Below, piece by piece: positions 6,629-41,487 of a stretch of 41,742 nt of DNA. This DNA comes from Labilithrix sp. (lineage in GTDB: Bacteria; Myxococcota_A; Polyangia; Polyangiales; Polyangiaceae), in assembly GCA_019637105.1 (NCBI GenBank), contig JAHBWF010000063.1, positions 1 to 41,742 on the forward strand, in the 5' to 3' direction. The notes under the pieces were generated by a model that had not been told where the DNA came from, ran no database searches, and saw only the letters and a list, made by a program, of their open reading frames with translations. The position numbers and the translations under genes were made by a program. The stretch's first letter is position 1, and each line of letters starts with the position of its first letter.

Positions 6629-6732
6629 GGCCTCCACGAGCGCGTTTCGTCGTCGAAATGCGCTCGTTGGGCAGCCGAGACCATGAGCAGACGCCCGGAG
6701 TCGCGCCGAAATCCGGCTCGTTCGCTCACCGG

Positions 6733-6746: not shown

Positions 6747-6764
6747 TGCCACGGGGGAAACGCG

Positions 6765-8039: not shown

Positions 8040-8042
8040 GGG

Positions 8043-8792
8043 TCACCGCATCGCGAGATCGGGGACGATCCGCACTTTTTCGGCGAGCGGCGGCGCGCCC
8101 GGCAGGTGCTGCGTGTCGACGAAGACCACGTCCGCGCTCGGGCACATCTCGAGGAAGGCGTTGCAGTTGCCCGGCTCGTTGTCGAACGCCGCGACGACCT
8201 CGCCGATGCGGGCGATCTTCGGTCCCTCCTCGCGCTTGAAGGCCTCGTCCGGGATCTTCGCGTCCGGCTTGCACACGAGCTCGGTGCCGACGACGCCGAT
8301 GGGGAAGCCGAGATCGCGCAGGCTCTGGAACGAGCCGAGGCTCATGAGCGGGAGATCGCGCCCGGTGAAGTAGACGATCGTGGCGCCGGCGTCGTAGCAG
8401 GCGCGCGCGAGCTCCACGCTGCCCGGGACGGCGACGTCGTGTTTGAGGTAGTGGTCGGAGAAGAAGCGCGACTTCCAGTAGGTCTCGGCGCGCGCGACGA
8501 GCTCCGGGTGCTCGACGCCGAGGCGCTGGAGCGAGTCCGTGAGCAGGTACGCGAGCTCCTCGGCGCGGGCGGCGGCGAGGATCTCTGCGGCGGAGTGCGC
8601 TTCGCGGTGGAGCTCGGCGGCGAGCTCCTGCAGGATGACGGCGGTGCGCGGACGGTTGTCCATGATCGTGCCGTCGAGGTCGAAGACGACGACGGGGACA
8701 GGCCGGCCGGCGACGGGCTTGGACCGCTGCACCACCCGCGCGAAGAGGGCGTGCTGCTCGGCGGACGTGATTCGTCGATACGCGGAGCTCAT
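8043..8792 (-). CDS. HAD-superfamily hydrolase
   Basis: 249 residues, cytoplasmic. The haloacid-dehalogenase motifs are present: motif I VFDLDGTIMDN (nucleophile Asp38, general acid Asp40), motif II VYFTGRD, a Lys-rich stretch (CKPDAKIPDEAFKREEGPK) that supplies motif III, and motif IV VAAFDNEPGNC. About 65 residues between motif I and II form a helical cap. These enzymes are mostly phosphatases; the substrate cannot be read from sequence. It is the first gene of a two-gene unit with the 424-residue lipoprotein. It is divergent from dnaJ across 177 bases and shares with it an identical TGCTAAGAG promoter-like element. Confidence 0.88.
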   Translation of the reverse strand: MSSAYRRITSAEQHALFARVVQRSKPVAGRPVPVVVFDLDGTIMDNRPRTAVILQELAAELHREAHSAAEILAAARAEELAYLLTDSLQRLGVEHPELVARAETYWKSRFFSDHYLKHDVAVPGSVELARACYDAGATIVYFTGRDLPLMSLGSFQSLRDLGFPIGVVGTELVCKPDAKIPDEAFKREEGPKIARIGEVVAAFDNEPGNCNAFLEMCPSADVVFVDTQHLPGAPPLAEKVRIVPDLAMR

Positions 8793-8805
8793 GGGGAAGC
8801 GGCGT

Positions 8806-8814
8806 CTCTTAGCA
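8806..8814 (-). promoter_or_regulatory. promoter-like element TGCTAAGAG before the HAD gene
   Basis: On the minus strand TGCTAAGAG (extended -10 form TG-N-TA) ends 13 bases before the ATG at 8792. The identical 9-mer precedes the divergent dnaJ. Confidence 0.45.
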
Positions 8815-8949
8815 TGCCGCCGGAGAACGAGGAAGCCGGCACCCGGCCCGCGCGCCGCGCGCCGCGCCGTCCCGGGCTCTCCCGTCGATCCCCGCGCGCG
8901 CGGCGGTCGGCTTCCCGCGCCCGCTGCCCTCCCGCAGGCGCCCGGAGCC

Positions 8950-8958
8950 TGCTAAGAG
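8950..8958 (+). promoter_or_regulatory. promoter-like element TGCTAAGAG before dnaJ
   Basis: The same 9-mer as at 8806-8814, in the opposite orientation, ends 11 bases before the dnaJ ATG at 8970. No heat-shock -35 (CTTGAA-like) or CIRCE inverted repeat was seen. Confidence 0.45.
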
Positions 8959-8969
8959 CAGATCCGGGC

Positions 8970-10091
8970 ATGACGGAGCACCGCGATCACTACGAGACCC
9001 TCGGCGTGTCGAGGTCCGCTGGACCGGACGACATCAAGGCCGCGTTCCGCAGGCTCGCGTCGCAGCACCACCCGGACAGGAACCCGGACGATCCGCGCGC
9101 CGCGATCCGCTTCAAGGAGATCAACGCGGCCTATCAGGTGCTGAGCGATCCGCAGCGGCGCGCGATGTACGACCGCTTCGGTCATCGCGCCGAGGAGCCG
9201 GGCTCGCCGTTCGCGTCGAGCGGGCCGTTCGCCGGCGGCGTCGTCGACTTCAGCGAGATCGCGATCGACGGCATCCTCGGCGACCTGCTCGGCGTCTTCG
9301 GCGTCGGCAAGGGCGACCGCGGCGACGTCAAGCGCGAGCTCGAGGTCACGTTCGAGGAGGCCGCCTTCGGCGCGACCAAGACGATGCGCTACGATCGCAT
9401 CGTCGCGTGCGGCGACTGCCGCGGCTCGGGCTCGGCCAAGGGCTCGCAGCCCGAGACGTGCAGCGCCTGCAACGGCCGCGGCCGCGTGCGCTTCCAGCAG
9501 GGGCTGCTCCCGATCGCCGTCGAGCGCGTCTGCCAGCGCTGCAAGGGGCGCGGCAGCGTCGTCACGAACGCGTGCGGCGGATGCAAGGGTAGCGGCCTCG
9601 TCACGAACGAGAACACGATCGAGGTGACGTTGCCCCCCGGCGTCGAGCACGGCGCCACGCGCGTGGTCAGCGGAGCCGGCAACCGCCCGCGCCCCGACCG
9701 CCCCGCGGGCGATCTCGAGCTCGAGATCAAGGTCCAGCCCCACCCGTTCTTCCGGCGCGCGGGCGACGACGTCGTGTGCAGCGTCCCGTTGACCTTCACG
9801 CAGGTCGCGCTCGGCGCCGAGGTCGAGGTCCCGACGCTCGACGGCAAGGGCAAGCTCCGCGTCCCCGCGGGCACGCAGCCCGGGACCACGCTCCGCATCA
9901 AGGGCAAGGGCATGCCGAAGCGCGCCGGCATCGGCCGCGGCGATCAGCGCATCGAGGTCGCCGTGGAGGTCCCGACCGCGCTGACCGAGCGCCAGCGCGA
10001 GCTGATCGAGGAGCTCGCGAAGGAGCTCGGCGAAGAGGTCACGCCGATCCGCAAGGGCTTCATGGAGAAGCTCCGCGATCTCTTCGGCTGA
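8970..10091 (+). CDS. dnaJ: DnaJ (Hsp40) co-chaperone
   Basis: 373 residues, cytoplasmic. It stimulates the DnaK ATPase and delivers unfolded clients. The J domain (about 5-72) has the HPD motif at 34-36. The zinc region (about 147-209) has four repeats in order: CGDCRGSG, CSACNGRG, CQRCKGRG and CGGCKGSG, enough for two zinc ions. The C-terminal client-binding and dimerisation domains follow, with the family segments GDLELEIKVQPHPFFRR and VPTLDGKGKLRVPAGTQPGT. The linker after the J domain is short in glycine and phenylalanine runs and instead reads DFSEIAIDGILGDLLGVFG, which is unusual for the classical G/F region. It is a single gene: no dnaK or grpE is adjacent, so it may be an extra DnaJ paralogue. 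The ATG is chosen where the J domain begins. Confidence 0.95.
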   Translation: MTEHRDHYETLGVSRSAGPDDIKAAFRRLASQHHPDRNPDDPRAAIRFKEINAAYQVLSDPQRRAMYDRFGHRAEEPGSPFASSGPFAGGVVDFSEIAIDGILGDLLGVFGVGKGDRGDVKRELEVTFEEAAFGATKTMRYDRIVACGDCRGSGSAKGSQPETCSACNGRGRVRFQQGLLPIAVERVCQRCKGRGSVVTNACGGCKGSGLVTNENTIEVTLPPGVEHGATRVVSGAGNRPRPDRPAGDLELEIKVQPHPFFRRAGDDVVCSVPLTFTQVALGAEVEVPTLDGKGKLRVPAGTQPGTTLRIKGKGMPKRAGIGRGDQRIEVAVEVPTALTERQRELIEELAKELGEEVTPIRKGFMEKLRDLFG

Positions 10092-29005: not shown

Positions 29006-30598
29006 GTGCGAGCGCGCGTCTTCATGGTCGGCATCACCGCGGCGGCGCTCGTCGTCGCGTGCAAGCGGAGCGCGGCGGACGAGGCCTCCGACGCCGCGCT
29101 CGCGCTGACCACGGCGCGGCTCGACGCGAGCGCCGTCCTGGCCGACGCGGGCGCGCCCGCGGCGAAGGCGGCCGCGTCCTCGGCGAAGGCCGCGACGGCG
29201 GCCCCGGCGCCGACGAGCCCCGACCCGTACGGCGTCGCGAAGACCGCGAGCCGCGCGTCGTGCGCCGTGCTCGGCGGCAAGCACGTGGCCGAGCGCGACC
29301 TCAAGACGTCGTTCGTCGACGGCGACGACCTCTTGGCGATCGTCAACCGCGCGCCGACCGGCCAGCTCGCGCCCGACTACGCGCCGTCGGATCTCGTCGA
29401 CATCCGGAATGGCAAGCCGCTCAGCGCGAGCGAGTGCGAGCGGTTCCAGTGCCTCCGGCGGGAGGCGGCGAGCGCGCTCGACGAGCTCCTCGCGCAGATG
29501 AAGAAAGAGGGCTTCCCCGGCAAGGTCGAGTCGGCCTTCCGCAGCTACGGCAACCAGTGCGGGACGTTCGGCAACTGGTCGCGCAAGAGCAACTTCTGCG
29601 AGGCGACCGAGCAGTCCGCGCTCCCCGGCCACAGCCAGCACCAGCTCGGCACCACCGTCGATCTGTTCACCGAGGAGTGGGCGAAGGACCCGCGCGGCGT
29701 CTTCCGCGAGGGCTTCGGGTGCACCGACGCCGGCCGCTGGCTCCGCGAGCACGCGACCGACTACGGCTTCGTGATGCCGTACCCGATCCACCCGGACGAC
29801 CGGCACCCACGGCAGAAGTGCGTCGCGCGCTGGGACATCCCGATCAACATCAACCCGCGCACCGGCTACCGCTTCGAGCACTGGCACATCCGCTTCGTCG
29901 GCAAGGACGCCGCCGCGCGCTTCACCAAGGCGCTCGCCGCGAGCGGGGTGGGGACGCCGCACGAGATCTCCGTCGAGCAGTGGCTCCGCAGCGAGAAGGG
30001 CCTCGTCGGGCCCGACGCGGAGCTCCCGGTCTGCGACGGTTGCAACTGCGGCGCGTGCAGCACGCTCGCGGCCCCCGGCGAGAACGCGTGCGACAAGAAG
30101 GGCGGCGCGCTCCACCTCGACGCGCACGGCAAGCCGCTGGTCCCCTCGGAGGCGCCGTCGATCGAGGGCGTCGCGAAGGGCAAGGGCCGAAAGTGGCGCG
30201 GCAAGGTCGTCGAGGTGAAGCTCGACGTCCCCGCCGGCACGATCACGCAGACGCCGATCGTCGGCCTCGACGGCGCCGGCTACACGACGGGCGCGACGTT
30301 CGACGCGCTCGCGCCGTACCCCGAGACCGAGCCGCGCGCCTACGCCCCGCTCGCGGACGCCTGGGTCGTCGCGGTGGAGCCGGCGCCGAACGACACCGGC
30401 GTGGCGTGGCCGTACCGCGCGGGGATCGCGCCCGCGATCACGGGCCAGATCTACAACCGCGCGAACGTCTTGCTCCCGGCGCGCGGCGGCGCCACGACGC
30501 TCCGCGTCCCGATCCCGAGCGGCGTCCGCAAGGCGAAGGTCGTCCTGCTCCGCGGCGGCGTCGCGCACGGCCAGGAGCGCGCGGTCGAGCTCGACTGA
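29006..30598 (+). CDS. D-alanyl-D-alanine carboxypeptidase-like lipoprotein (M15B/VanY)
   Basis: 530 residues from a GTG with AAGGGAG five bases upstream. The signal ends LVVAC (Cys19), so it is lipid-anchored in the envelope. An Ala-rich linker follows to about residue 70. The M15B zinc peptidase domain (about 90-310) has ESAFRSYGNQ, the zinc motif SQHQLGTTVD (His212, Asp219) and EHWH (catalytic Glu291, ligand His294). It trims the terminal D-Ala of peptidoglycan peptides. About 220 further residues follow: a Cys cluster (CDGCNCGACS) and then a beta-rich domain of unknown type. This extension is unusual for VanY enzymes, which are about 250 residues. Confidence 0.9.
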   Translation: MRARVFMVGITAAALVVACKRSAADEASDAALALTTARLDASAVLADAGAPAAKAAASSAKAATAAPAPTSPDPYGVAKTASRASCAVLGGKHVAERDLKTSFVDGDDLLAIVNRAPTGQLAPDYAPSDLVDIRNGKPLSASECERFQCLRREAASALDELLAQMKKEGFPGKVESAFRSYGNQCGTFGNWSRKSNFCEATEQSALPGHSQHQLGTTVDLFTEEWAKDPRGVFREGFGCTDAGRWLREHATDYGFVMPYPIHPDDRHPRQKCVARWDIPININPRTGYRFEHWHIRFVGKDAAARFTKALAASGVGTPHEISVEQWLRSEKGLVGPDAELPVCDGCNCGACSTLAAPGENACDKKGGALHLDAHGKPLVPSEAPSIEGVAKGKGRKWRGKVVEVKLDVPAGTITQTPIVGLDGAGYTTGATFDALAPYPETEPRAYAPLADAWVVAVEPAPNDTGVAWPYRAGIAPAITGQIYNRANVLLPARGGATTLRVPIPSGVRKAKVVLLRGGVAHGQERAVELD

Positions 30599-30603
30599 CC
30601 GGA

Positions 30604-30623
30604 GCCGCGCGCGCGCGTGCGCG
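30604..30623 (+). terminator. GC hairpin after the M15B gene
   Basis: GCCGCGC-GCGCGT-GCGCGGC is a perfect 7-bp stem with a 6-base loop, starting six bases after the stop at 30598. No T-run follows. Confidence 0.4.
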
Positions 30624-30686
30624 GCGCCGCCGGCAGAGGTTGGCCTCGTGGAGGACGAACCTGCTGCGTCGAAGAGAGGAGCGGGG

Positions 30687-30692
30687 TACCTT
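30687..30692 (+). promoter_or_regulatory. -10 element TACCTT at the head of the sigma-factor gene block
   Basis: TACCTT ends eight bases before the GTG at 30701. The same hexamer sits nine bases before the metallophosphoesterase start. If used, it would drive the outer-membrane protein and perhaps the sigma operon behind it. Confidence 0.35.
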
Positions 30693-30700
30693 CCTCGGTC

Positions 30701-31771
30701 GTGAGATCGTCGGCGCATCCGCGGGCGGGACGACGCTCCGTGGGGACCGCGGTCCTGGTCCTCGGCCTGTCCCTCTCGGCATCGGAGGCAGGAGCGCGCG
30801 AGGACGCCGCCGACCGCATCGTCCTCGAGTACTCGGCGGCGAGCGAGTGCCCCTCCACGGACGAGCTCCTCCGGCGGATCGCCTCGTACACGACGAGGTG
30901 GACGCTCGCGCAGCCGGACGAAGCGGCGCGTCGATTCGTCGTCCGGATCGCTCGGCGCGGGGACCGCTACGTGGGACGGCTCGATCTTCGCGAGGCGCGG
31001 GGCGACGCCGCCGCCCGCGAGATCGCCGCGGACGACTGCGACGACGTCGTGCTCGGCCTCGCGATCGCCGTCGCGATCGCGATCGATCCGCACGCTGCGC
31101 TCGGCCCCGACGTGCCGGGCAGGGAAGCCCCCGACGCGCCGTCTCCGGTGGCGCCGCCGGAGACGGGCGTCCCCGCGCCGGCGCCGGCGAGACCGCGGCG
31201 CGAGGCGCAGACGGCGCCAGCTCCCCAAGCCGCGCGCGTCGATCGGCTCGCGGCGTCGGTCGGTGCGCGAGCCGAAGCCAACAGCGCGGTCTCCGGAGTC
31301 CTCGCGGTGGTGGACGTCTACGTGGAGGTGGAGTGGAGCGCGCCGATCGCCCGCCTCCCGCTCAGGCCCGTCCTCCGCGCCGGCCTCCGCAAGAGCTTCG
31401 CGCGGACGAGCCGGGTCGGCGAGACCGAGACGAGCATCGAGTGGAGCGCCGGCCAGATCGAAGCCTGCCCGCCGCGTCTCCTGGTGACGTCGCGGCTCGC
31501 GATCGAGGCCTGCCTCGGCTCGAACGTCGGTGTGCTGTCGGCCGCGGTTCGCGACATCCCCGGGGCCGGGGTCACGCATCGCTTCTGGCTCGACTACGGA
31601 GCGGTCGTCGCCGCGCGCTGGCGATTCCACCCCGACCTCTTCGTCGAGGCGGCCGGCGCCGCCTGGCTCCCGGTCACCCGCGACCGGCTGCGCGTCGAGC
31701 CCGACGGGCTGGTCACGGAAGCTCCTCCCGTCGGGTTTTCTGCCGGGATCGGCGCGGGTTGGCGCTTCTGA
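30701..31771 (+). CDS. probable outer-membrane protein with N-terminal periplasmic domain
   Basis: 356 residues. VGTAVLVLGLSLSASEAGA is a cleaved signal. Residues about 38-130 form a small domain opening CPSTDELLRRI and closing with a Cys in ADDCDDVVLGLAIAVAIAID. I recall this kind of domain in several myxobacterial outer-membrane proteins. A Pro/Ala linker (about 140-180) leads to a beta-strand-rich C-terminal domain that ends GFSAGIGAGWRF. A terminal aromatic residue (Phe) after an alternating strand is the usual barrel-insertion signal. The function is unknown. It lies 44 bases before the sigma factor on the same strand and probably belongs with it. The GTG is chosen for signal-peptide length; frames starting earlier are possible. 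Confidence 0.75.
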   Translation: MRSSAHPRAGRRSVGTAVLVLGLSLSASEAGAREDAADRIVLEYSAASECPSTDELLRRIASYTTRWTLAQPDEAARRFVVRIARRGDRYVGRLDLREARGDAAAREIAADDCDDVVLGLAIAVAIAIDPHAALGPDVPGREAPDAPSPVAPPETGVPAPAPARPRREAQTAPAPQAARVDRLAASVGARAEANSAVSGVLAVVDVYVEVEWSAPIARLPLRPVLRAGLRKSFARTSRVGETETSIEWSAGQIEACPPRLLVTSRLAIEACLGSNVGVLSAAVRDIPGAGVTHRFWLDYGAVVAARWRFHPDLFVEAAGAAWLPVTRDRLRVEPDGLVTEAPPVGFSAGIGAGWRF

Positions 31772-31815
31772 GTCGATTTTGTGATCGTCCCCCCGCGCGA
31801 GCTGCGTTTACGTCC

Positions 31816-32400
31816 ATGACGGCCGCCTCCCACTCGCTCGCCGGGGGTGATGACGCCCTGCCGAGCATGTCGAGGAGCCGCGCCGACGAGAGACAGCAGC
31901 GCGTCGCGGAGGCCCACTTCGCCAGCGTCTGGCGGTTCCTCCGCGCGCTCGGAGTCCCCGCCGGCGCGCTCGACGACGCGGCGCAGGAGGTGTTCCTCGT
32001 CGTGGCCCGCAAGCTCGAGAGGATCCGACCCGAAGCCGAGAGGTCGTTCCTCTTCAGCACCGCCGTCCACGTCTCGCGCGAGCTTCGCAGGAAGCACGCG
32101 CGCGAGGAGCTCGCGCAGGATCCGGACGACGAGGCCCTCGAGCCGTCCGACGGCTGGACGCCCGAGGCGTCGCTCGATCGGAAGGAGGAGCGCGATCTCT
32201 TGATGCACCTCCTCCACGGCCTGACCGAAGAGCTCCGCACGGCGTTCGTGCTCTACGAGATCGAGGGCCACTCCGTGACCGAGATCGCGGCCATGCTCGA
32301 CGTCCCCTCCGGCACGGTCGCTTCGCGCCTCCGGCGCGCGAGGGAGAAGGTCGAGCTTCGATTGCAGAAGCTGCAGATGACGATGCGAGGCGAGCGATGA
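31816..32400 (+). CDS. ECF-type RNA polymerase sigma factor
   Basis: 194 residues. Region 2 (about 35-100: VWRFLRALGVPAGALDDAAQ, EVFLVVARKLERI) opens the -10 element, and region 4 (about 130-185: GLTEELRTAFVLYEIEGHSV, TEIAAMLDVPSGTVASRLRR) reads the -35. Regions 1.1 and 3 are absent, as in group 4 sigma factors. Another in-frame ATG is at 31867. Its stop overlaps the next start (ATGA at 32397), so it is translationally coupled to the candidate anti-sigma factor. The position at the head of six coupled envelope-protein genes suggests it controls their expression. Confidence 0.9.
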   Translation: MTAASHSLAGGDDALPSMSRSRADERQQRVAEAHFASVWRFLRALGVPAGALDDAAQEVFLVVARKLERIRPEAERSFLFSTAVHVSRELRRKHAREELAQDPDDEALEPSDGWTPEASLDRKEERDLLMHLLHGLTEELRTAFVLYEIEGHSVTEIAAMLDVPSGTVASRLRRAREKVELRLQKLQMTMRGER

Positions 32401-33101
32401 AGGATCCCCGCCGTCTGGTGGATGAGAGCGAGCTCTTCGCGAGCCTCGTCGCCGACGCGAAGCGGCGGGAGCCGCCGCCCGAGGCGCTTCGAGGTCTCCT
32501 CGAGACGCTCGGCGCGCGCTCGGCGGTCGCGGCGCCCGCGACGGCGATCCGGCAGAAGTGGATGCGCGTCGCGATCGCCGGCGCCGGAGGCGTGGCGCTG
32601 CTCGGCGCGGTCACCGCCGAGCTCTCGTCCAGGCGCGCGCCGGCGCCGGGAGCGCCGCCCGCGATCGCGGCGCCCGCGGTGGAGGACGTGTCACCGTCTC
32701 CGGCGATCCCGGTCACGGCTCCGGAGCCCGTGAGCGCGGCGCCGGCGATCCCGATCGCCGATCTCCCCGACGCGAAGGTGACGGCGCCGCGCGGGCGGCT
32801 CCGCGCGCCGGCGCCGGCGCCGTCGGCGCGGCGTGAGATCGAGCTCGTCGCGCAGGCGCGCGAGGCGCTCACGCGGGGTGACGCGCGCGCCTGCCTCGCG
32901 GCCGTCGATCTCCACGACCGCGAGTTCCCCGCCGGACAGTTCGCGCTCGAGGCGAGCGTGATGCGCATCGAGGCGACGCTCGCGAGCGGCGATCGGGCGG
33001 CCGCGCGCGCACTCGCGCTGGAGTACCTCGCGAAGCACCCGGGCAGCCCCTACGAGGGACGCGTCCGCTCGCTCGTCGCCGCTTCGACGGAGGAGCGATG
33101 A
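32397..33101 (+). CDS. one-pass membrane protein, candidate anti-sigma factor
   Basis: 234 residues. A short cytoplasmic N-terminus (about 1-54, with SLVADAKRREPPPEALRGLL) precedes one transmembrane segment (about 55-75, VAIAGAGGVALLGAVTA). A Pro/Ala-rich periplasmic linker (about 80-140) and a C-terminal helical region follow. The latter looks like tetratricopeptide/YbgF-type repeats (LVAQAREALTRGDARACLAA and FALEASVMRIEATLASGDRA). The topology and the ATGA overlap with the ECF sigma gene are those of an anti-sigma factor. No zinc-binding anti-sigma motif is present, so the role is inferred from position. The stop overlaps the next start by ATGA (33098), preceded by GGAGGAG. Confidence 0.75.
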   Translation: MKDPRRLVDESELFASLVADAKRREPPPEALRGLLETLGARSAVAAPATAIRQKWMRVAIAGAGGVALLGAVTAELSSRRAPAPGAPPAIAAPAVEDVSPSPAIPVTAPEPVSAAPAIPIADLPDAKVTAPRGRLRAPAPAPSARREIELVAQAREALTRGDARACLAAVDLHDREFPAGQFALEASVMRIEATLASGDRAAARALALEYLAKHPGSPYEGRVRSLVAASTEER

Positions 33102-34204
33102 CGGCGCGACGATTCGCGAGCGCGCTCTTCGTCGCGACGGGCAGCGTGCTCGCCTTCTCGTGCGGGGTCTCGACGTCCTACGACGTCGTCATCGCGAAGC
33201 GCCCCGACGCGTCGACGCCGAGCTTCGTCTCGCCCGACGCCGCGGAGGCGTCCACGCAGGACGGGAGCGGCGTCGCGCTCTGCGCGACGAACGAATGTCC
33301 GGCGGGTCGGACCACGTGCCCGAACAACCCGTTCCCGTGCGCGGTCGATCCGAGCACGGACGACGACAACTGCGGGTCGTGCGGGCACCACTGCCCGGAG
33401 CTCGAGGTCACGGCTCACGGCGACATGCTGCACGCCGAGGCGCACTGCGTGAAGGGCGGGTGTCAGCTCGTGTGCAAGAGCGGATTCGCCGACTGCAACG
33501 GCTTCGTCGAGGACGGCTGCGAGGGCGACCTCGCCCAGGACAAAGAGAACTGCGGCGCGTGCGGGGTGGTCTGTCCGGGCTCGGACGTCTGCTTCATGGG
33601 GGAGTGCGCGTGTCCGGTCGCCGGGAGCTGCGGGGCTTGCGGGAACCTGTGCCCGCGGAGCACCCAGCCTCCTTTCCCGCGCGAGTGGCACGCGGACTAC
33701 GGGTGCGTCGGCGGTCAGTGCAACGAGCCCACGTGCTTGCCCGTCTGGGACGACTGCAACAACGACTTCCCGACGGACCCGGGCGGCGACGGCTGCGAGA
33801 CGAACCTCGACGGCGATCGGAACAACTGCGGCCAATGTGGACGTGTGTGTGCCGCGGGCGAGATCTGTCGGCGCGGGGTCTGCGAGTGTCCTTGCGGCGC
33901 TCCGTGCTTTCAGGATCGGATCAACACGGACGTCGAGAACTGCGGCGGGTGCGGCTTCCGTTGCCCGGGCGTCGGCGACCCGCGGATGGCGAACGGCGTG
34001 CCGGTCTGTGACGAGGGCGTCTGCGACTTCCGGTGCGACGCCCACTGGGCGGACTGCGACGGCGACGATCAGAACGGCTGCGAGACGAACGTGGCCAGGG
34101 ATCCGCTCCACTGCGGGGGGTGCAACGTCCGCTGCGACGGCGTCGACGGGCAGGCGTGCGTCGACGGCAAGTGCACGATGAAAGAGTGCGGGGCGGTCCA
34201 GTGA
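33098..34204 (+). CDS. Cys-rich surface lipoprotein with CGxCGxxC repeats
   Basis: 368 residues with about 49 cysteines. The N-terminus ends FSC near residue 22, a non-canonical lipobox. After a Ser/Asp linker come repeated units of the form 'D/E-NC-G-x-C-G-x-x-C-P', e.g. DDNCGSCGHHC, KENCGACGVVC, NNCGQCGRVC and ENCGGCGFRC. Between them lie 'DCxxxxxDGCE' segments such as FADCNGFVEDGCEGDL and ADCDGDDQNGCETN. Such proteins are abundant in myxobacteria and, as I recall, are often mislabelled tryptophan synthase alpha chain in databases; there is no such fold here. It is probably an extracellular, disulfide-stabilised rod. The stop overlaps the next start (GTGA at 34201). Confidence 0.88.
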   Translation: MTARRFASALFVATGSVLAFSCGVSTSYDVVIAKRPDASTPSFVSPDAAEASTQDGSGVALCATNECPAGRTTCPNNPFPCAVDPSTDDDNCGSCGHHCPELEVTAHGDMLHAEAHCVKGGCQLVCKSGFADCNGFVEDGCEGDLAQDKENCGACGVVCPGSDVCFMGECACPVAGSCGACGNLCPRSTQPPFPREWHADYGCVGGQCNEPTCLPVWDDCNNDFPTDPGGDGCETNLDGDRNNCGQCGRVCAAGEICRRGVCECPCGAPCFQDRINTDVENCGGCGFRCPGVGDPRMANGVPVCDEGVCDFRCDAHWADCDGDDQNGCETNVARDPLHCGGCNVRCDGVDGQACVDGKCTMKECGAVQ

Positions 34205-35397
34205 CGTCGCCGGCGCGATGGGGCCGTGCGGCGAGGCTCGCCGCGGCGGCCGTCGTCTTCCCGCTCGCCTGCGTCGCCAGGGGCGAGCCCGAGGCGGGGT
34301 CCTCCGATCCGGCGCCGTCGGCGATCGTGCCCGACGCGTCGAGCGCGGGCGCCGACGCCGCCGCGGTCCCGGACGCCGCCGCGGGGCGGTGCAGCGCGTC
34401 CAGGCTCTGCGTCGAGGAGGTGCCCATCGACGAGTTCGTCCATCTCACGTCCGTCTGGGGATCGGGCGCGACGGACGTGTGGGCCGTCGGCGCGCACGGC
34501 ACGATCCTCCACTACGACGGCGTCGCCTGGCGGAAGGCCGAGGTGGTGGCCCCGGACGGCGGCCTCCTCTACACGCTTCGGAGTGTCTGGCTCGAACGCC
34601 CGGACGACGTCTGGATCGTCGACGGTACGACCCAGGTCGGGGGCGGCGGACTGCTCCGGCACGGAGTCGGCTGGAAGGGGCCGAGCGCGACGACGTGGAC
34701 CTTCTTCACGCCGAGCGATCCGTCCGGGTTCGAGCCGCTCATCGTACGCGGCAAATCCGATACCGTCTGGATCGCGCACGCAGGCCACCGGCTCCTCGAG
34801 GCGTTCGACGGATGGTCCGGCGGCGCCCCGGGGCCGTCTCGGACCCTCGCCCCGGCGCGCATGAGCGCGGTCACGGCGCTCGCGGTGTCGCGCGCCGACG
34901 AGGTGTGGGCCGCGGGCAGCTGCTTCGACGAGGCGTTCGTGAGCCGCTTCGGGTGTGTCTTCCGCGGGAGCCTCTCGACGGCTGGTCCGGTGCCGGAGCC
35001 GCCGGCGTGGCGGTTCGAGGAGCACGACAGCCGCACGAACAAGGCGCTGCGCGGCGCGTGGGGCGACGAGAGCGGCGCGTGGCTCGTCGGCGACGCGGGC
35101 ACGCTTCGACGCATGACCCGGAGCGCCGTGCCGGGCAAGAAGCTCGAGATCGTGAAGAGCCCGGTCGTCGCCGATCTCCGCGGCGTCTTCGGCTTCGGCC
35201 CGGACGACGTGTGGGCCGTGGGGGAGGCCAGCACCGTCCTGCACTGGGACGGAGCGGTGTGGACGAAGCTCGCGACGCCGTTCGACGACGCGAGCGACAG
35301 GCCGATGCTCCACGCGGTCTGGGGGAGCTCGCCGAGCGACGTCTGGATCGTCGGCGACGGAACGGTGCTGCACTTCGACGAGGTGAACGGGCGATGA
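34201..35397 (+). CDS. beta-propeller lipoprotein (DVWAVG repeats), paralogue 1
   Basis: 398 residues from a GTG. The signal is LAAAAVVFPLAC (Cys near 22), followed by a Pro/Ala/Asp linker. About six repeats of the form 'VWG-x-(3-5)-DVW-x-VG-x-(3-5)-LHYDG' follow: VWGSGATDVWAVGAHGTILH near the start, then SVWLERPDDVWIVDG, VSRADEVWAAGS, AWGDESGAWLVGDAG, VFGFGPDDVWAVGEASTVLH and VWGSSPSDVWIVGDGTVLHF. These suggest a six-bladed propeller. A surface-exposed binding protein is likely; the ligand is unknown. The ATGA overlap at 35394 couples it to a paralogue. Confidence 0.88.
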   Translation: MTSPARWGRAARLAAAAVVFPLACVARGEPEAGSSDPAPSAIVPDASSAGADAAAVPDAAAGRCSASRLCVEEVPIDEFVHLTSVWGSGATDVWAVGAHGTILHYDGVAWRKAEVVAPDGGLLYTLRSVWLERPDDVWIVDGTTQVGGGGLLRHGVGWKGPSATTWTFFTPSDPSGFEPLIVRGKSDTVWIAHAGHRLLEAFDGWSGGAPGPSRTLAPARMSAVTALAVSRADEVWAAGSCFDEAFVSRFGCVFRGSLSTAGPVPEPPAWRFEEHDSRTNKALRGAWGDESGAWLVGDAGTLRRMTRSAVPGKKLEIVKSPVVADLRGVFGFGPDDVWAVGEASTVLHWDGAVWTKLATPFDDASDRPMLHAVWGSSPSDVWIVGDGTVLHFDEVNGR

Positions 35398-36668
35398 GTC
35401 GGGGTTCTTGCCGCGCGCGCTCCTGTCTCCGTGGCCTCGCCTTCCTGGCGCCGATCGCGATCGCGGCGCCGGCGTCGTGCGCCGACAGCGGCGTCGAGCG
35501 CGAGCCCGAAGCGGATCGAGCGCCCGACGCCACGGTCCTGCCGGACGCGCCGCCCTCCGACGGCGGGCCGCCGGTCGCCGACGCGTCGAGCGACGTCGTC
35601 GTCGACGCGCGGTGCAGCCCGGGCGGCTTTTGCTACGAGGCGCTGCCCGTTCCCGTGCCGCTCGTGGGCGTGTCGGCGACGAGCATGGATCACGCGTGGG
35701 CCGTCGGCGGTGACGTGATCGTGCGATGGGACGGCGCGTCGTGGAAGCCCGCGTACCGGTACGACGGAGCGACGAGCGGGACGGCCGTGACCCTCCGTGC
35801 CGTCTTCGTCGCGAAGGCCGACGACGTGTGGGCGGTGGGAGCGACGCCCTTCCCCGATCGTCGGTTCTTCGTCGTCCGTCGCTCGCAAGGGGACGGCGGC
35901 GCCCCGGCCTTCCGGGAGACGCTCACCGAAGAGCCCGTCGTCGGGGACTTCTGGGCCGGCTGGCTCGCCCCCGGCTCGGACGCGCTCTGGCTCGTCGAGG
36001 CCGGCACGGGCTCCGTCCTTCGCTTCCGCGAGGCCGCGGACGGCGGCGTCGCGACCGATCGCTGGCGACCGCAGGGAGAGCCGGAGGACGGGGCCTTCTA
36101 CGCCTGGTACGGCTTGTGGGGCTTCGGCGCCGACGTGTACGTCAGCGGGACGGCGTGCTCGTTCGGCTCGTGCACGAACCTCGTCGCGCGCTACGACGGC
36201 GAGAGCTGGTCGACCTCCACGTTCGAAGATCCCAAGATCGTGACGGGGATGTTCGGGACGAGGGATCTCGGGCAGCCGAAGCACCTCTGGCTCGAGCTCC
36301 TGGACAGCGCGACCGGGGCTCGATCGGTCCGCCTCGTGCCGCTCTCGAGCGACGGCGGTCTCGGAGCGCCCGTGGTCGAGCGCGCCTTGTCCGGGTGCGG
36401 CTCCTTCGTGGGCTCCGCGGCCGATCCGGGGGCGGCGTGGCTCTCCGACGGCTGCCTCGTCCATCGCTGGAACGGAGCCACGCTCGAGGTGACGCCGATC
36501 GCGGTCGGCGGGGAGCCGCCGGGGCGCGTGAACGCGGTGTGGGCCGGGAGCGCCGACGACGCCTGGGTCGTCGGCGCGTCGCTGCCGTACCAGGGACCGA
36601 ACGTGCCGGAGCTCGGCTTCGCCGCGAGGCGCGAAGGGAAATGGGCGGCGGACGGGGGTGAGCCGTGA
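35394..36668 (+). CDS. beta-propeller lipoprotein, paralogue 2
   Basis: 424 residues. The N-terminal signal ends APASC (Cys near 29). After a Pro/Asp/Ala linker come blades of the same type as the gene before it: VSATSMDHAWAVGGDVIVRW, VFVAKADDVWAVGATP, WLAPGSDALWLVEAG, LWGFGADVYVSG, MFGTRDLGQPKHLWLEL, AADPGAAWLSDGCLVHRW and VWAGSADDAWVVGAS, about seven repeats. Blades 4 and 5 are more degenerate than in paralogue 1. A tandem duplication that diverged is the simplest origin. The stop overlaps the next gene by GTGA (36665). Confidence 0.87.
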   Translation: MSRGSCRARSCLRGLAFLAPIAIAAPASCADSGVEREPEADRAPDATVLPDAPPSDGGPPVADASSDVVVDARCSPGGFCYEALPVPVPLVGVSATSMDHAWAVGGDVIVRWDGASWKPAYRYDGATSGTAVTLRAVFVAKADDVWAVGATPFPDRRFFVVRRSQGDGGAPAFRETLTEEPVVGDFWAGWLAPGSDALWLVEAGTGSVLRFREAADGGVATDRWRPQGEPEDGAFYAWYGLWGFGADVYVSGTACSFGSCTNLVARYDGESWSTSTFEDPKIVTGMFGTRDLGQPKHLWLELLDSATGARSVRLVPLSSDGGLGAPVVERALSGCGSFVGSAADPGAAWLSDGCLVHRWNGATLEVTPIAVGGEPPGRVNAVWAGSADDAWVVGASLPYQGPNVPELGFAARREGKWAADGGEP

Positions 36669-37960
36669 AGCTCCCGAGGACGCTGTCTGCCGGTGGGCTG
36701 ATTGGCGCGCTCGTCGCCGCGTGCTCCTCGGCTGGGGAGCGCGCCGCGCCGGCCGACGACGCGGGGGCGGCCCCCTCGCCTCCGCAAGACGCGGGCTCCT
36801 CGGACGCCGACGCGCAGGTCGGCGCGGACGCGGGGGCGCCGAAGCCGCTCGACGTCACGTGCGCGGTGGAGCCTTGCTACGTGGCGGTGAGCGGCAACGG
36901 CGGCCGTCACGTGTGCGGGCTCCTCCGCGACGGGACGGTCCGCTGCTGGGGCCGCGACACGATGCTCCCGGCGGCCGCGCTCGACGACGGAGGCAGCGTC
37001 ACGGCCGACGGCGCGCTCGGCCGGGGCAGGTCGGTGTCCAGGCTCGAGGCCGCCACGCCGGCGCCGGTCGTGGGCCTCTCCGGCGTGACCCGGCTCAGCG
37101 TCGGTCCGAACCTCGGCACCTGCGCGCGCACCTCGGACGGGAGCGTTCATTGCTGGGGAAGAAACGAGCACGGTCAGCTCGGCAGGGCGACCGGCGAGCC
37201 GAGCCTCGCCGTCCCCGCGCGCGTCGAGGGCATCCCGCCCGTCGACGACGTCGCGCTCGGCGCGACGGTGGGCTGCGCCGTCGCGTCGTCGGATCGTGCG
37301 CTCTACTGCTGGGGAAGGACGACGGAGGGACTCGGCGTCGACGCGGGGGGGAGCGACACGTTCCCTCCGCGACGGGTCGCCACGTTCCCCGCGCCGGTGC
37401 AGTCGCTCGCGCTGGGGACCTGGTCCGACGAGGACACCGTGATCGCCCTGCTCGCCGGCGGCAAGCTCGCGAGCGCGGGCCCGTCCGCGACGGGGGAGAC
37501 GTCGTCGCCGCCGCCCTGGACGTCGCCGCTGGAGACCTTCGACGTCGTTCGGAGCTGGACGTTCGCCTACGTCGCGAGCGACGGCCTGCTCCGGCGGTGG
37601 CGCCCCGCGGAGGGCACGGTCTACGTCCCCGCGCGAGCGCCGATCGTCGACGCGAAGATCTCCGGAGGCGCCGAGGATCATCAGGGCGGCGTGCTCCTGT
37701 CGACGGGTCGCCTGTTCCGTTGGGGCGGGAACACGTCGGGCGCGCTCGGCGTCGCTCCCTCGGCCTTGCTCTTCGGGCCACATCCGCTCGAGGTGACCCA
37801 GGTCGGCGCGCGGGTCGTCTCGTTCGCGACGACGGTGGGATCGACGTGCGCTTCCCTCGTCGACGGGGAGGTCGTCTGCTGGGGCGCCAACGCCTTCGGC
37901 GAGCTCGGTCGCGGCACCGTCGACGACTTCCCGCATCCGGAGGCCGAGCCGATCCGATGA
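36665..37960 (+). CDS. RCC1-repeat lipoprotein
   Basis: 431 residues from a GTG. The signal LIGALVAAC gives the lipid Cys near 20. An acidic linker of repeated Asp/Ala (to about residue 65) precedes RCC1-type repeats, each closing in 'CWGRN-x-x-G-x-LG': DGTVRCWGRD, DGSVHCWGRNEHGQLGRA, RALYCWGRTTEGLGV, GRLFRWGGNTSGALGV and DGEVVCWGANAFGELGRG. This makes a seven-bladed fold likely. Bacterial RCC1 proteins are usually extracellular adhesins or scaffolds, and none is known to be a GTPase exchange factor. The ATGA overlap at 37957 leads to the last gene of the unit. Confidence 0.9.
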   Translation: MKLPRTLSAGGLIGALVAACSSAGERAAPADDAGAAPSPPQDAGSSDADAQVGADAGAPKPLDVTCAVEPCYVAVSGNGGRHVCGLLRDGTVRCWGRDTMLPAAALDDGGSVTADGALGRGRSVSRLEAATPAPVVGLSGVTRLSVGPNLGTCARTSDGSVHCWGRNEHGQLGRATGEPSLAVPARVEGIPPVDDVALGATVGCAVASSDRALYCWGRTTEGLGVDAGGSDTFPPRRVATFPAPVQSLALGTWSDEDTVIALLAGGKLASAGPSATGETSSPPPWTSPLETFDVVRSWTFAYVASDGLLRRWRPAEGTVYVPARAPIVDAKISGGAEDHQGGVLLSTGRLFRWGGNTSGALGVAPSALLFGPHPLEVTQVGARVVSFATTVGSTCASLVDGEVVCWGANAFGELGRGTVDDFPHPEAEPIR

Positions 37961-39708
37961 GACTCTGGGCTACGAGCCTCGCCGTCGTTCTCGGCGCCGT
38001 CGCGGTGGCGCACTTCGGCTGCGGCGCCGATCGGGATCCCTACCGTCGCGGGATCGAGGAGACGAGCTTCGCCGACGCGGCGGCCGCGGACGGATGCGTA
38101 GGGCTCGAGCGGCGATGCTCGCGCGATCTCCGCGCGGTGGTCGACGGGTGCGACGAGTCGCTCGTCGTCGCGGTGTGCCCGCCGGATCGAGGCTGCGCGG
38201 CCGGGGCGTGCGTGCCGGCGTGCTCCGCGGCGGTCAGCAGCGCCGCGACCGTGGGCTGCGAGTTCGCCGCGCTCGCCCCGAGCCGCTACGACGAGAGCCG
38301 CGGATCGTGCTTCGGCGCGCTGCTCACGAACACGTGGGGAGCCCCTGCGCGCATCGAGGCGGACTACGCGGGATCGACGATCGACCTCGCGGTCTCGGCG
38401 CGCGTCGTCCGTACGTCCGGCGACGGAGTGACGTACGAGCCGTTCACCGGCGAAATCCAGCCCGGCGAGGTGGCCGTGCTCTTCTTGAACCACCTGCCCG
38501 AGAGGCCCGTGGGGCGGCCGCCGACGGGCGTGGGCTGGGTACCTTGCCCGGCCGACGTCACGCCCGCGGTGCTCGTCGACACGAGCATCAAGGGAACGGC
38601 GCGGGGCAAGTCGTTCCGGATCAAGACGTCGGCGCCCGTGAGCGCCTACAGCGTCTACCAGCTCGGTAGACCCGGCGGTCACGCCGCGTCGGCCACGCTG
38701 CTCCTCCCGGTGCCGGCCTGGAAGACCGGCTACGTCGTGACGGACGCGTGGGAAGCCGACGTCGGCTTTCCGGCCACCCAGATCGTGGCGGCCGAGGACG
38801 AGACCGACGTGACCGTCGCGGGCAGCGCGACGATCCTCCCAGGACCGGAAGTCGAAGGGGCGCCGATGGGGACCCCGCAGACGTACCGGCTGAATCGCGG
38901 CGACGTCCTCCAGTTCGCGCAGAGCGAGCAGCTCGCCGGCAGCCGCGTCGAGGCGAGCAAGAGCGTGGCCGTGCTGGGAGGCCACGAGTGCATGAACATC
39001 CCCACCGGGAAGCGCTGGTGCGATCAGGCGCAGCTTCAGCTCTTTCCGGTGCGGTCGTGGGGACGCGAATACGTCGCCGCTCCGCACCTCTCGCGCCGAG
39101 TCGACGGCGCGCCCGAGTCGTACTTCTACCGGATCGTCGCGGCGGTCGACGGCACCGCGCTCACGTACGATCCGCGCCGGCCGGCGGACGCACCGACCGT
39201 CCTCGACGCTGCCGGCTCGAGGATCTTCATGACGCACGAGCCCTTCGTCGTGAGCAGCCAGGACACGGATCACCCGATCACGGTCTACGCGTACATGACG
39301 GGGCTCGAGTTCGCGAAGGCGAAGATGGACGACGGCGATCCGGAGTTCACCTACGTCATCCCGACCGATCAGTACCTCGATCGCTACGTCTTCTACGTGG
39401 CGCCGAGCTACCGCAGCTCGCACCTCGTGATCGTCCGCGCGCGGCCCGACGGGAGGGACTTCCAGCCCGTGAACCTCGACTGCGCCGGGCCCCTCGACGG
39501 CTGGTCGCCCGTGGGCAGCGCGGGCAAGTACGAGCTCGTCCGCGTCTCGCTCGGCGCGGGCGGAGGGTGCGGTCCCGGGCGCCATGAAATGAGCAGCACG
39601 GGCCCGTTCAGCGTGACGGTCTGGGGTACGGACGTCGCGACGAGCTACGCCTACCCGGGCGGGGCGGCCATCCGCGAGCTCAACGCCGTCGGGGGCCTCG
39701 TTCGCTGA
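37957..39708 (+). CDS. IgGFc-binding-like secreted protein
   Basis: 583 residues. The N-terminus reads VVLGAVAVAHFGC (Cys near 22), a secretion or lipoprotein signal, followed by a short Cys-rich stretch (about 45-105: CVGLERRCSRDLRAVVDGCD and CPPDRGCAAGACVPAC). The rest resembles the IgGFc-binding N-terminal domain (pfam17517) found in FCGBP and many bacterial surface proteins. Typical family segments are SVYQLG, ATLLLPVPAWKTGYVV, ETDVTV, GDVLQFA, GSRVEASKSVAVLGGHECMN, CDQAQLQLFPVRSWGREYVA and SFSVTVWG-like SGPFSVTVWGTD. It is the last gene of the coupled block and is convergent with the phosphatase gene. Extracellular binding is inferred. Confidence 0.85.
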   Translation: MRLWATSLAVVLGAVAVAHFGCGADRDPYRRGIEETSFADAAAADGCVGLERRCSRDLRAVVDGCDESLVVAVCPPDRGCAAGACVPACSAAVSSAATVGCEFAALAPSRYDESRGSCFGALLTNTWGAPARIEADYAGSTIDLAVSARVVRTSGDGVTYEPFTGEIQPGEVAVLFLNHLPERPVGRPPTGVGWVPCPADVTPAVLVDTSIKGTARGKSFRIKTSAPVSAYSVYQLGRPGGHAASATLLLPVPAWKTGYVVTDAWEADVGFPATQIVAAEDETDVTVAGSATILPGPEVEGAPMGTPQTYRLNRGDVLQFAQSEQLAGSRVEASKSVAVLGGHECMNIPTGKRWCDQAQLQLFPVRSWGREYVAAPHLSRRVDGAPESYFYRIVAAVDGTALTYDPRRPADAPTVLDAAGSRIFMTHEPFVVSSQDTDHPITVYAYMTGLEFAKAKMDDGDPEFTYVIPTDQYLDRYVFYVAPSYRSSHLVIVRARPDGRDFQPVNLDCAGPLDGWSPVGSAGKYELVRVSLGAGGGCGPGRHEMSSTGPFSVTVWGTDVATSYAYPGGAAIRELNAVGGLVR

Positions 39709-39721
39709 GCTCGGCGCCGTC

Positions 39722-39751
39722 GTCGTCGAGGCGTGCCTCTCCGTCGACGAC
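39722..39751. terminator. weak hairpin between convergent genes
   Basis: GTCGTCG (39722-39728) pairs with CGACGAC (39745-39751) over a loop that itself contains AGGC/GCCT. It lies in the 84 bases between the two stops. No T-run. Confidence 0.3.
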
Positions 39752-39792
39752 CGCCGCGCGCGGACGGCGCGGGGGCGTCGTGCCGCCGGAGC

Positions 39793-41487
39793 TCAGGCCC
39801 GGTGCTCGATCTCCGGCGCGACCTTGAAGAAGGCGTTGCGCTCGGGATCGTTGTAGCTCCGCCAGTCCGGGACCCACGGGACGACGCGCGCCTCCGCGCC
39901 GTCGTGCGTGATCGTCAGCGCCATCGGCGTCACGTCGCGGTACGTGCTCTCCGCCGGGAGGTCGTTGTTGTCCTTCCCTCCCGCCGAGAACACCGTGACC
40001 AGGCGACCGGCGTCGTCGTCGTAGACCGCCGAGAAGCCCTCGAGCACCTTCTCGTGGCCGCGCACCATCGTGTTCGTCCCGAGCCGCTGCATGAAGGCGC
40101 GGAACTGCATCCGGCCGAAGGCGAAGCGAGCCGCCTGGTCCTGCAGGTCGGCCGGGATGACGTCGGCCGTGCTCGGATCGCTCCACATCATCTGGAAGCG
40201 GATGTCCGGGTCGTTGAGCGACGAGAGGTCCTTCCAGCGCTCCTTGATGAGTCGGTCCTTGGGGATGCCGCCGTGGACGAACATGAAGCGATCGAACAAA
40301 AAGACGTTCGGCATCTGCTCGAAGAGCGTGCGGTAGTGGCGGAACACGTCGACCGGGAGGAGCGGCTTGAGCGTGTTGATCGCCTCGGCCGGCTTCACGC
40401 CGCCGTACATCGTGCCGTTCACCTCGACGTAGTACTCGTGGTTGCCCCGGAGCATCACGACGTGTTCGGGCGCCGTGACGAAGAGCTGGAGCACCGTGCG
40501 GAGGACGCCGTTCAGGCTGAACCGGCCGCGATCGATGTAGTCGCCCAGCAGGACGAGGAGCGGGTACGGGACGTTCTTCGGATCCTTGCGGTACGCGTCG
40601 ACGCGCTCGAAGAAGCGACTCTGGAGGACCGTCGCCTTCAGGATGCTGTAGCAGCCGTGGAGATCGCCGAGCACCGTGAGCTCCGTGCGCGCCCCGGGCT
40701 TCGGCATCCGCACGTACGTGTGGCCGTCGAGGAACGGCGGCGCGCCGGCCAGCTCGGCGACGTTCTTCTTGCCCGTGAGGCGGCCGTCGCCGGCCCGGCG
40801 CTGCGTCTCGATCACGGCGAGCGCTCGATCGATGAGCGCGCGGTCGGCGGTGACCTGGCGCGTGAGCGCGTCGGGATCGCGCGAGAAGTGGAATTCGAAC
40901 GGCTTGAAGAACGGGTGGTCGATCGTCGACGCCCCCGCGTCGATCGGCGCCGCGACGGCGACGCGCGCGCTGTCGTTCGGGCCGCCGTCGTCGACGATCT
41001 CGACCTCGACGTGGGAGTCGAGCAGGCGCCCGAGCTCGCTCCGGAACTGCACCTCCGCCGGGTGCGCGACGCCGTCGGCCATGAGCAGGCTGTCGATGAG
41101 CCGCATGAGCTCGGCGCGCCCGCGCGGATCGAAGCTCTGGAAGATCTCGAAGCACCGCACCTTGAGCTTCGAGTGGACGAACGCCTTCGGGTCCTCGTTC
41201 TCGGAGACGCTCTCCGTGAAGAGCTCCTTCACGTTCTGATCGATCCCCTCGAAGACCTCGTGGAAATGCTTGGTGAACTTGTCGACCACCTCGGCGCGGA
41301 CGGACGCGGCGGCGCCGGGCATCGCGGTGTTCGCGCGGTGCTCGATGAGCTTCTTGATGACGTCGCGGACGAAGCTCTTCTCCGCGGCGTCGAAGTCGCC
41401 GTCGATGTACCCGAAGGTGACGAGGTAGAAGATGACCGCGTGCATCTCGTGCTCGGCACGCTTCGGGTCGTCGCTGAAGGTGATCAT
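39793..41487 (-). CDS. TerB-like domain fused to PPP-family Ser/Thr phosphatase
   Basis: 564 residues, cytoplasmic. Residues about 1-180 are helical and resemble the tellurite-resistance TerB fold, with two acidic helix-loop-helix segments (TFGYIDGDFDAAEKSFVRDV and DSLLMADGVAHPAEVQFR) of the kind that bind metal. Residues about 265-530 are a phosphoprotein phosphatase with the full motif set: GDLHG (274-278), GDYIDRG (about 316), RGNHE (about 347), VHGG (about 404) and MVRGHE (about 466). These supply the dimetal site and catalytic His. The inference is dephosphorylation of proteins, with TerB as a regulatory or targeting module. An extended -10 lies just upstream. Which kinase it opposes is unknown. 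Confidence 0.88.
   Translation of the reverse strand: MITFSDDPKRAEHEMHAVIFYLVTFGYIDGDFDAAEKSFVRDVIKKLIEHRANTAMPGAAASVRAEVVDKFTKHFHEVFEGIDQNVKELFTESVSENEDPKAFVHSKLKVRCFEIFQSFDPRGRAELMRLIDSLLMADGVAHPAEVQFRSELGRLLDSHVEVEIVDDGGPNDSARVAVAAPIDAGASTIDHPFFKPFEFHFSRDPDALTRQVTADRALIDRALAVIETQRRAGDGRLTGKKNVAELAGAPPFLDGHTYVRMPKPGARTELTVLGDLHGCYSILKATVLQSRFFERVDAYRKDPKNVPYPLLVLLGDYIDRGRFSLNGVLRTVLQLFVTAPEHVVMLRGNHEYYVEVNGTMYGGVKPAEAINTLKPLLPVDVFRHYRTLFEQMPNVFLFDRFMFVHGGIPKDRLIKERWKDLSSLNDPDIRFQMMWSDPSTADVIPADLQDQAARFAFGRMQFRAFMQRLGTNTMVRGHEKVLEGFSAVYDDDAGRLVTVFSAGGKDNNDLPAESTYRDVTPMALTITHDGAEARVVPWVPDWRSYNDPERNAFFKVAPEIEHRA

Follow-up and report, generated by a model that had tools for sequence, protein, structure and literature searches.

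A multicopy cassette of sigma factor and lipoprotein-like genes in Labilithrix, and the partly separate histories of its two halves

Introduction

Does a row of overlapping genes for a sigma factor, a membrane protein and several lipoprotein-like proteins form one ordinary operon, or is it assembled from parts with histories of their own? The question is raised by a stretch of 41,742 nucleotides of Labilithrix DNA (positions 1-41,742 of contig JAHBWF010000063.1, assembly GCA_019637105.1; here called the window), in which a preliminary description recognised a seven-gene, fully coupled operon of an extracytoplasmic function (ECF) sigma factor and surface-type lipoproteins. Here, we describe this locus as one copy of an eight-gene cassette with the order OM-SIG-TM-CYS-PRO-PRO-RCC-IGG, in which the first three genes are referred to as the triad and the last five as the pentad. 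Comparison of its copies indicates that triad and pentad have partly separate histories, the control and surface halves having repeatedly recombined.

A multicopy cassette and its distribution

The window copy lies on the forward strand. It begins with OM (30701..31771; 356 amino acids from 30701, called start 30740), a presumed exported protein, followed by SIG (P0001, 31816..32400), an ECF-type sigma factor with regions 2 and 4, and TM (P0002, 32397..33101), a one-pass membrane protein and presumed anti-sigma factor. The pentad comprises CYS (P0003, 33098..34204), a Cys-rich (49 Cys), lipoprotein-like protein resembling MXAN_6577; PRO1 (P0004, 34201..35397), which is lipoprotein-like and probably a beta-propeller of the tectonin/Ycf48 kind; its relative PRO2 (P0005, 35394..36668), a second propeller-like protein; RCC (P0006, 36665..37960), an RCC1-repeat protein with a canonical lipobox; and IGG (P0007, 37957..39708), a lipoprotein-like protein with an IgGFc_binding domain. 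The seven open reading frames from SIG onwards and their six 4-base overlaps (ATGA at 32397, 33098, 35394 and 37957; GTGA at 34201 and 36665) are as first described. As a homologous unit common to orthologues at other genomic places, the cassette extends over 30687..39710: blastn matches to the orthologues in Labilithrix sp. ACE_MYX5 (G004, locus L072) and ACE_MYX7 (G007, L071) run from 53 bp before the called OM start to 2 bp after the IGG stop, with no further match above 150 bp beyond the cassette.

IGG was used to search 39 genomes, the window's own and 38 relatives, and the loci found were annotated by means of profiles of the eight proteins and a simple gene caller based on codon usage. 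Matches occur in 32 of the 39 genomes, in some as many paralogues. Of 116 unique IGG loci, drawn from the window's genome (G000), Myxococcales bacterium 68-20 (MKVQ01; G003), G004, G007, G010, G012 and the metagenome-assembled genome (MAG) ACE_MYX12, 100 are cassettes. Of the 96 cassettes that can be judged, 90 keep the core CYS-PRO-PRO-RCC-IGG exactly, and the complete eight-gene order is found in 45 of the 100, while contig ends cut 16 of the 100. Set and order are thus conserved in relatives, which the preliminary description had named as its own test, and the gene at 30701, which it had put forward as a possible eighth member, is a regular one, with OM preceding SIG in the 45 complete cassettes. 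TM is called beside SIG in 57 of the 67 same-strand cassettes with SIG, a count that is low because the gene caller often picks an antisense open reading frame over TM.

Copy numbers differ widely. Of the 17 IGG loci in the genome of the window, 12 are cassettes (RCC was not called in two of these), and at a further locus, L254, the order OM-SIG-TM-CYS-PRO-PRO is followed by another gene. At 1e-25 the CYS profile finds 14 copies in this genome, at least 137 in 68-20, 40 in G004 and 12 in G007, together with 4 in G010, 2 in G012, 3 each in G005 and G008 and 1 in G001, some of the counts in these last five being pairs of CYS with a lipoprotein-like gene of ~290 amino acids and not cassettes. The IGG profile at 1e-40 finds at least 135 copies in 68-20 and 39 in G004, which has about 40 cassettes; the values for 68-20 are lower bounds, with 150 candidates scored of 252 (CYS) and 277 (IGG). 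In that genome, 92 of the 93 CYS matches listed (of 137) have a listed IGG match 3.7-5.5 kb downstream on the same strand, and 52 of 59 sampled IGG loci are cassettes. The complete cassette has a median length of 9,415 bp, and 135 cassettes would take up ~1.27 Mb or 10.7% of the 11.9 Mb of 68-20, an estimate in which every IGG is taken as a cassette. As IGG identity among the 52 cassettes of 68-20 has a median of 0.41 and a maximum of 0.83, the copies examined are not strain duplicates. To our knowledge, at least 135 diverged copies of the last gene in one bacterial genome is exceptional.

The pentad is seen in the window's genus and in one MAG fragment (L195, ACE_MYX12, genus unplaced). When 318 genomes of the class were searched with six candidates each, all CYS matches stronger than 1e-80 fell within the genus, where 9 of 13 genomes have them, and the best match outside it has 1e-54; for PRO1 at 1e-30, matches were obtained in 6 of the 13 and, outside the genus, in 1 of the 5 genomes examined, and the IGG loci fetched from other genera do not lie within cassettes. 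The OM family, by contrast, has members in 51 of 59 genomes, a count that takes in the window's genome and its genus. Twenty further loci were fetched, four of them without an OM call; among the other 16, two of which are from a cassette-free genome of the same genus, SIG comes after OM in 12, and a gene with at least 13 Cys is next in six of these 12. The triads in other genera of the family or order resemble the first three genes of the cassette in content and order, some with a Cys-rich gene thereafter, but differ in that PRO-PRO-RCC-IGG was not seen beside them in the 20 loci.

Partly separate histories of triad and pentad

Across 45 cassettes, Spearman correlations of pairwise identities are 0.64-0.82 within the pentad and 0.43-0.45 within the triad, compared with 0.07-0.19 between triad and pentad (15 comparisons, three of them slightly above the largest of 200 permutations). 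Trees of SIG (171 columns) and of CYS+PRO1+RCC+IGG (1725 columns, PRO2 left out) were built for 71 cassettes. Of 53 well-supported pentad splits, 39 are in conflict with SIG; when one half of the pentad was compared with the other as a control, 39 splits agreed and 2 of 50 were in conflict. Ten splits with support of at least 0.9 are common to the SIG and pentad trees, including the one that joins the window copy to its G004 and G007 orthologues. That the SIG tree is mere noise is made unlikely by the correlation within the triad and by the junctions visible in the DNA. For pairs, pentad identity was taken over four proteins, again without PRO2, and the pairs share members and are non-independent: among 29 pairs with pentad identity above 0.65, SIG identity exceeds 0.6 in 14 and is below 0.45 in 15. 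L189 and L210 carry unrelated triads on pentads that are 84-90% identical, and four pentads that form a clade with support 1.0 (those of L060 and L124 and two neighbouring ones in L207) have four sigma factors with pairwise identities of 0.30-0.37. In all 12 sigma-swapped pairs that were mapped (of 15), DNA homology starts 96-195 bp inside CYS, a stretch that corresponds to 33193..33292 (+) in the window, where it is placed by analogy with these pairs, none having been mapped in the window copy itself.

Neighbouring genes differ in how often they overlap. Usable in-frame 4-base overlaps have a chance rate of ~0.25; across the family they occur at CYS/PRO1 in 91/96, PRO1/PRO2 in 90/93, SIG/TM in 47/57, RCC/IGG in 63/97 and PRO2/RCC in 41/92 cases, and are low at TM/CYS (14/60, chance level) and OM/SIG (4/56). 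All six overlaps are present in just 4 of 51 complete same-strand cassettes, namely the window copy, its orthologues L071 and L072, and L077, so that full coupling is unusual and the family consists of two coupled blocks. The triad is divergent from the pentad in four cassettes (L056, L085, L109 and L190). Between OM and SIG, GTGATC occurs more often than expected (in 11 of 52 gaps, counted on strictly intergenic DNA, versus 1.8 +/- 1.2), and upstream of OM no common motif was found other than weak k-mer excesses. In the window, a candidate SIG promoter read from the sequence lies at 31781..31815 (+), with GTGATC at 31781-31786 and ACGTCC at 31810-31815, the latter being a guess for the -10 element. 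The single fully coupled operon of the preliminary description is not borne out for the family, in view of the TM/CYS overlaps at chance level, the divergent triads, the GTGATC in the OM-SIG gap and the largely different histories of the two halves.

Probable movement of the cassette

The window, G004 and G007 orthologues have 80-92% DNA identity in their main pieces, and homology of the window copy to the other two stops 53-112 bp short of the called OM start on one side and 2-3 bp past the IGG stop on the other. Outside the cassette lie a left flanking gene (29006..30598, +, 530 amino acids) and a right flanking gene (39793..41487, -, 564 amino acids), whose homologues stand side by side, with matched ranges 15-38 bp apart, at cassette-free sites in G010, G005, G012, G002 and G008. 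Left-flank homology ends at 30596-30630 in the five longest matches and earlier in others, and right-flank homology begins at 39752-39809; the DNA absent from the same site in these five relatives, the presumed insertion, spans 30603..39790, with edges uncertain by ~30-40 bp. Given five empty sites in relatives, the cassette was most simply inserted as a unit in the window's lineage. In G004, G007, G003, G006 and G009 other genes, none a cassette, lie between the homologues of the flanking genes. Eleven cassette pairs were examined over flanks of limited length: homology continues into the flanks in three, one has a separate 67% match upstream and seven have none. For the G004 cassette, a second empty site was sought in eight short loci, in which the left neighbour was not found beside the homologue of the right neighbour.

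A 10-bp GC-rich direct repeat at 30604 and 39753 was considered as a target-site duplication of the window copy and rejected, being at chance level: a longest edge repeat of 10 bp is equalled by 107 of 300 shuffles, and within 60-bp edges by 26 of 300. No recombinase or transposase is recognised among the eight cassette genes.

The convergent flanking pair itself (window 30599-39792; L259-L268), empty in five relatives, holding different genes in five and a cassette here, looks like an insertion hot spot. At one of these sites in 68-20 (L261, G003:C16:24000-40000), two other lipoprotein-like genes lie at 5996-9943 between the flanking-gene homologues, in a segment bracketed by 64 and 124 bp copied from the ends of the two flanking genes, duplications that might stem from integration through a shared junction.

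The eight proteins

SIG matches PF04542, PF08281 and TIGR02937 above their cut-offs in Pfam and NCBIfam, with no region 3 match listed, and resembles sigma-E in the PDB (E 1e-14). TM has a single hydrophobic segment at residues 56-74 of P0002, preceded by a short cytoplasmic N-terminus and followed by a Pro-rich linker and a C-terminal part resembling tetratricopeptide repeats (TPRs). The preliminary assignment of this pair, in which a membrane protein with one pass accompanies an ECF sigma factor, is thus borne out by sigma70 regions 2 and 4 in P0001 and the hydrophobic segment in P0002. YfiO matches the window TM below its cut-off; in the family (23 members) 13 Pfam families are matched, mostly TPR models and YfiO, with YfiO in six members and single TPR models in up to five. 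The OM family (48 sequences) is laid out as an N-terminal part with two conserved Cys, a Pro-rich linker and a C-terminal part presumed to be a barrel.

Among the pentad proteins, IGG matches PF17517 (IgGFc_binding) at E 7e-93 with 311.6 bits, the curated cut-off being 25.6, and its Cys22 is invariant in 13 aligned copies. RCC (P0006) matches the RCC1-repeat families PF00415 and PF13540 above cut-off. CYS of the window matches Stig1 barely above cut-off (27.4 versus 24.1 bits) and the NCBIfam MXAN_6577 Cys-rich family (NF041328) at E 4e-15, below its cut-off, and its Cys pattern is kept in 12 aligned copies. Of the two propellers named in the preliminary description only PRO1 finds support, by its profile: P0004 alone has no Pfam or NCBIfam match and the sole match of P0005 alone is DUF6087 (E 0.014, below cut-off), yet a PRO1 profile of 34 proteins matches the solved propellers tectonin 2 (5fsb, E 1.5e-5) and a Ycf48-like protein (E 4e-5). 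PSII_BNR is matched in 9 and Tectonin in 4 of the 34 members, and neither in P0004 itself. PRO2 is tied to PRO1 by sequence; the PRO2 query finds PRO1 at 3e-13, and the PRO1 query missed PRO2 at 1e-4.

In each of the window's five pentad proteins the signal segment terminates in a Cys. In the family, 71-88 of the 90 copies of each protein have a Cys between residues 13 and 48, and no more than 2 have Asp at position +2. By the Lol sorting rule of Escherichia coli, the rarity of Asp would direct the pentad proteins to the outer membrane. Over 61 comparisons in eight pairs, the ratio of non-synonymous to synonymous substitutions (dN/dS, a rough NG86 estimate) is 0.13-0.52, which indicates purifying selection in these pairs, and it tends to be lowest for IGG, SIG and CYS.

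Proposed working and its alternatives

We consider it somewhat probable that the cassette consists of two exchangeable modules, in which a trans-envelope switch drives an anchored recognition or adhesion complex, and that its copies multiply, move and swap modules. The layout of OM, together with the membrane segment and TPR-like end of TM, suggests a relay of sensor, anti-sigma factor and sigma factor. OM would sense an outside cue or the state of the surface complex and pass the signal to the periplasmic TPR part of TM, which would then free the ECF sigma factor to turn on its own operon. The pentad would supply five lipoproteins anchored in the outer membrane, some of them rich in disulphides and including the propellers and the IgGFc-type protein, that may act jointly in recognition or adhesion. 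Copies of the cassette would multiply, relocate as units, diverge and sometimes exchange modules. A bolder version, which we put forward tentatively and hold at less than even, sees a reshuffled repertoire: more than 100 diverged surface modules in 68-20, most of those examined with a sensor-sigma module of their own, recombined between copies and genomes at a recurring joint inside CYS, with the signal peptide going with the sensor side. If so, the cell keeps changing which cue triggers which surface complex, and spends about a tenth of its genome on doing so.

Several results weigh against the two-module switch. TM is its weakest link as an anti-sigma factor, since its N-terminus covaries little with SIG (0.15, versus 0.54 for the C-terminus), and neither FecR nor any known anti-sigma domain is found among the 23 TM members scanned with Pfam. 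None of the 48 OM sequences matches a Pfam family at E 0.01 and no TonB receptor is recognised among them. The canonical lipobox pattern fits only RCC (P0006) among the window's five pentad proteins, and in CYS a Cys at the lipobox place is partly expected from composition; of the surface-type lipoproteins proposed in the preliminary description, the Cys that ends the signal segment holds in most copies of the five proteins and the canonical lipobox only in P0006. Pentads without a recognised triad beside them exist in the window's genome (L058) and in 68-20 (L074, L075, L076, L089, L161 and L194), although the gene caller may miss genes. Two of the 12 mapped swapped pairs have a separate homologous block 2.6-4.1 kb upstream, and, of three reverse cases, two have homology as far as 238 and 286 bp inside CYS and the third stops 27 bp short of the gene, so that junctions are not always the same and mosaics not always simple. 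Finally, the empty sites in relatives may partly reflect loss of the cassette and not the lack of an insertion.

Further points of this kind concern the two halves travelling together, and the first of them also speaks for a conventional, vertically inherited operon, with one ECF sigma/anti-sigma pair over envelope proteins and whole cassettes duplicated in the ordinary way. Similar pentads accompany SIG identities above 0.75 in 11 of 12 pairs, so the closest orthologues keep both halves; of 28 pairs above 0.65, 15 have similar pentads and 6 clearly do not; and the nearest cassette by SIG is also the nearest by pentad in 25 of 71 (45 for CYS versus IGG). The 11 close pairs with similar pentads, the ten shared splits and the three of 11 pairs with homology into their flanks fit vertical descent, but the 39 contradicted splits, the L189/L210 pair and the empty site beside the window copy do not. 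As the whole story of the family, a single vertical operon is ruled out by the correlations, the swapped pairs and the tree conflict, and we regard the conventional operon as quite improbable. The empty site and sharp ends of homology would also suit a selfish mobile unit with incidental cargo; the lack of a recognised recombinase or transposase among the eight genes, the purifying selection and the chance-level edge repeat make this the most improbable of the explanations weighed here. Doubtful, too, though less so, is a role in nutrient capture in the manner of the polysaccharide utilisation loci of Bacteroides, with the sigma factor answering a substrate that the lipoproteins collect. The logic is the same, in that each of many copies comes with surface proteins and a sigma factor of the ECF kind, and the PRO1 profile matches tectonin 2, which is of a glycan-binding kind, but no enzyme, TonB receptor or SusD-like protein is recognised among the eight proteins. 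About equally unlikely is cell-cell recognition or kin discrimination, by which each strain would display a different surface repertoire: the strong divergence of the 68-20 copies and the exchange of modules agree with it, whereas no toxin or immunity gene is recognised in the cassette, and the eight pairs show purifying selection by a measure that is gene-wide and not site-wise.

Relation to known systems

In FecA-FecI-FecR cell-surface signalling, an outer-membrane protein, an ECF sigma factor and a one-pass membrane protein are encoded together. The cassette likewise has an OM-type protein, an ECF sigma factor and a one-pass membrane protein in one locus, but it differs in having no recognised TonB receptor or FecR domain, a TM that ends TPR-like and an attached five-gene surface set, and the content of the OM and TM families (no Pfam match in 48 OM, no FecR in 23 TM) rules out membership. 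Polysaccharide utilisation loci of Bacteroides with ECF sigma/anti-sigma pairs are present many times over in a genome, every locus having a sigma factor and surface proteins of its own, and the same is true of the cassette; in place of a recognised SusC/SusD pair or carbohydrate enzyme, however, the cassette has propeller-like, RCC1, IgGFc and Cys-rich proteins, and with no such pair or glycan-active enzyme among the eight proteins membership is ruled out here as well. Surface-protein operons under ECF control are a known kind of system, as are large paralogous families, and we know of no previous report of this composition, scale and module exchange. The largely separate histories of control and effector halves amount to a natural experiment on rewiring ECF switches to new outputs, and the family offers many natural sets of sigma factor, membrane protein and promoter for specificity tests.

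RCC1 proteins have been noted in other myxobacteria: MXAN_0889 is among vesicle-specific proteins [PMC4158809] and Haliangium has 15 RCC1-domain genes [PMC3035250]. The likeness lies in the RCC1 repeats of myxobacterial proteins, in one case a protein of outer membrane vesicles, and the difference in that no cassette or link to a sigma factor is reported in the available excerpts of these two papers. Excerpts of a further paper contain nothing on the cassette [PMC6403173]. A description of the cassette was not found in the open-licence literature, absence from which is weak evidence, and the family marks a large share of coding capacity in some of these bacteria for which no description was found.

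Variant and partial loci

Several loci depart from the common arrangement. At L065 and L099 (G000 and G007) an extra RCC gene lies between TM and CYS, and the fragment L195 of MAG ACE_MYX12 is a tandem one, with PRO-RCC-IGG followed by SIG-TM-CYS. In cassette-poor genomes of the genus (L246, L248, L249, L251, L252 and L253) CYS stands beside the lipoprotein-like gene mentioned above, which is ~290 amino acids long where complete and has a TDK-LYRF stretch; this pairing is possibly a founder arrangement. At L070 (G000:C50, 6297-10816), an OM-like gene and a short IgGFc fragment lie divergent to an OM-SIG-TM triad; the match of the fragment contains one TGA, and the locus is perhaps a decayed cassette. 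At L209 in Nannocystis sp. RBIL2, a TM-SIG-OM triad is divergent from a lone IgGFc gene, which suggests an older link between triad and IGG. The genome of 68-20 has at least 150 matches to sigma region 4, all of the 150 scored among 443 candidates being matches.

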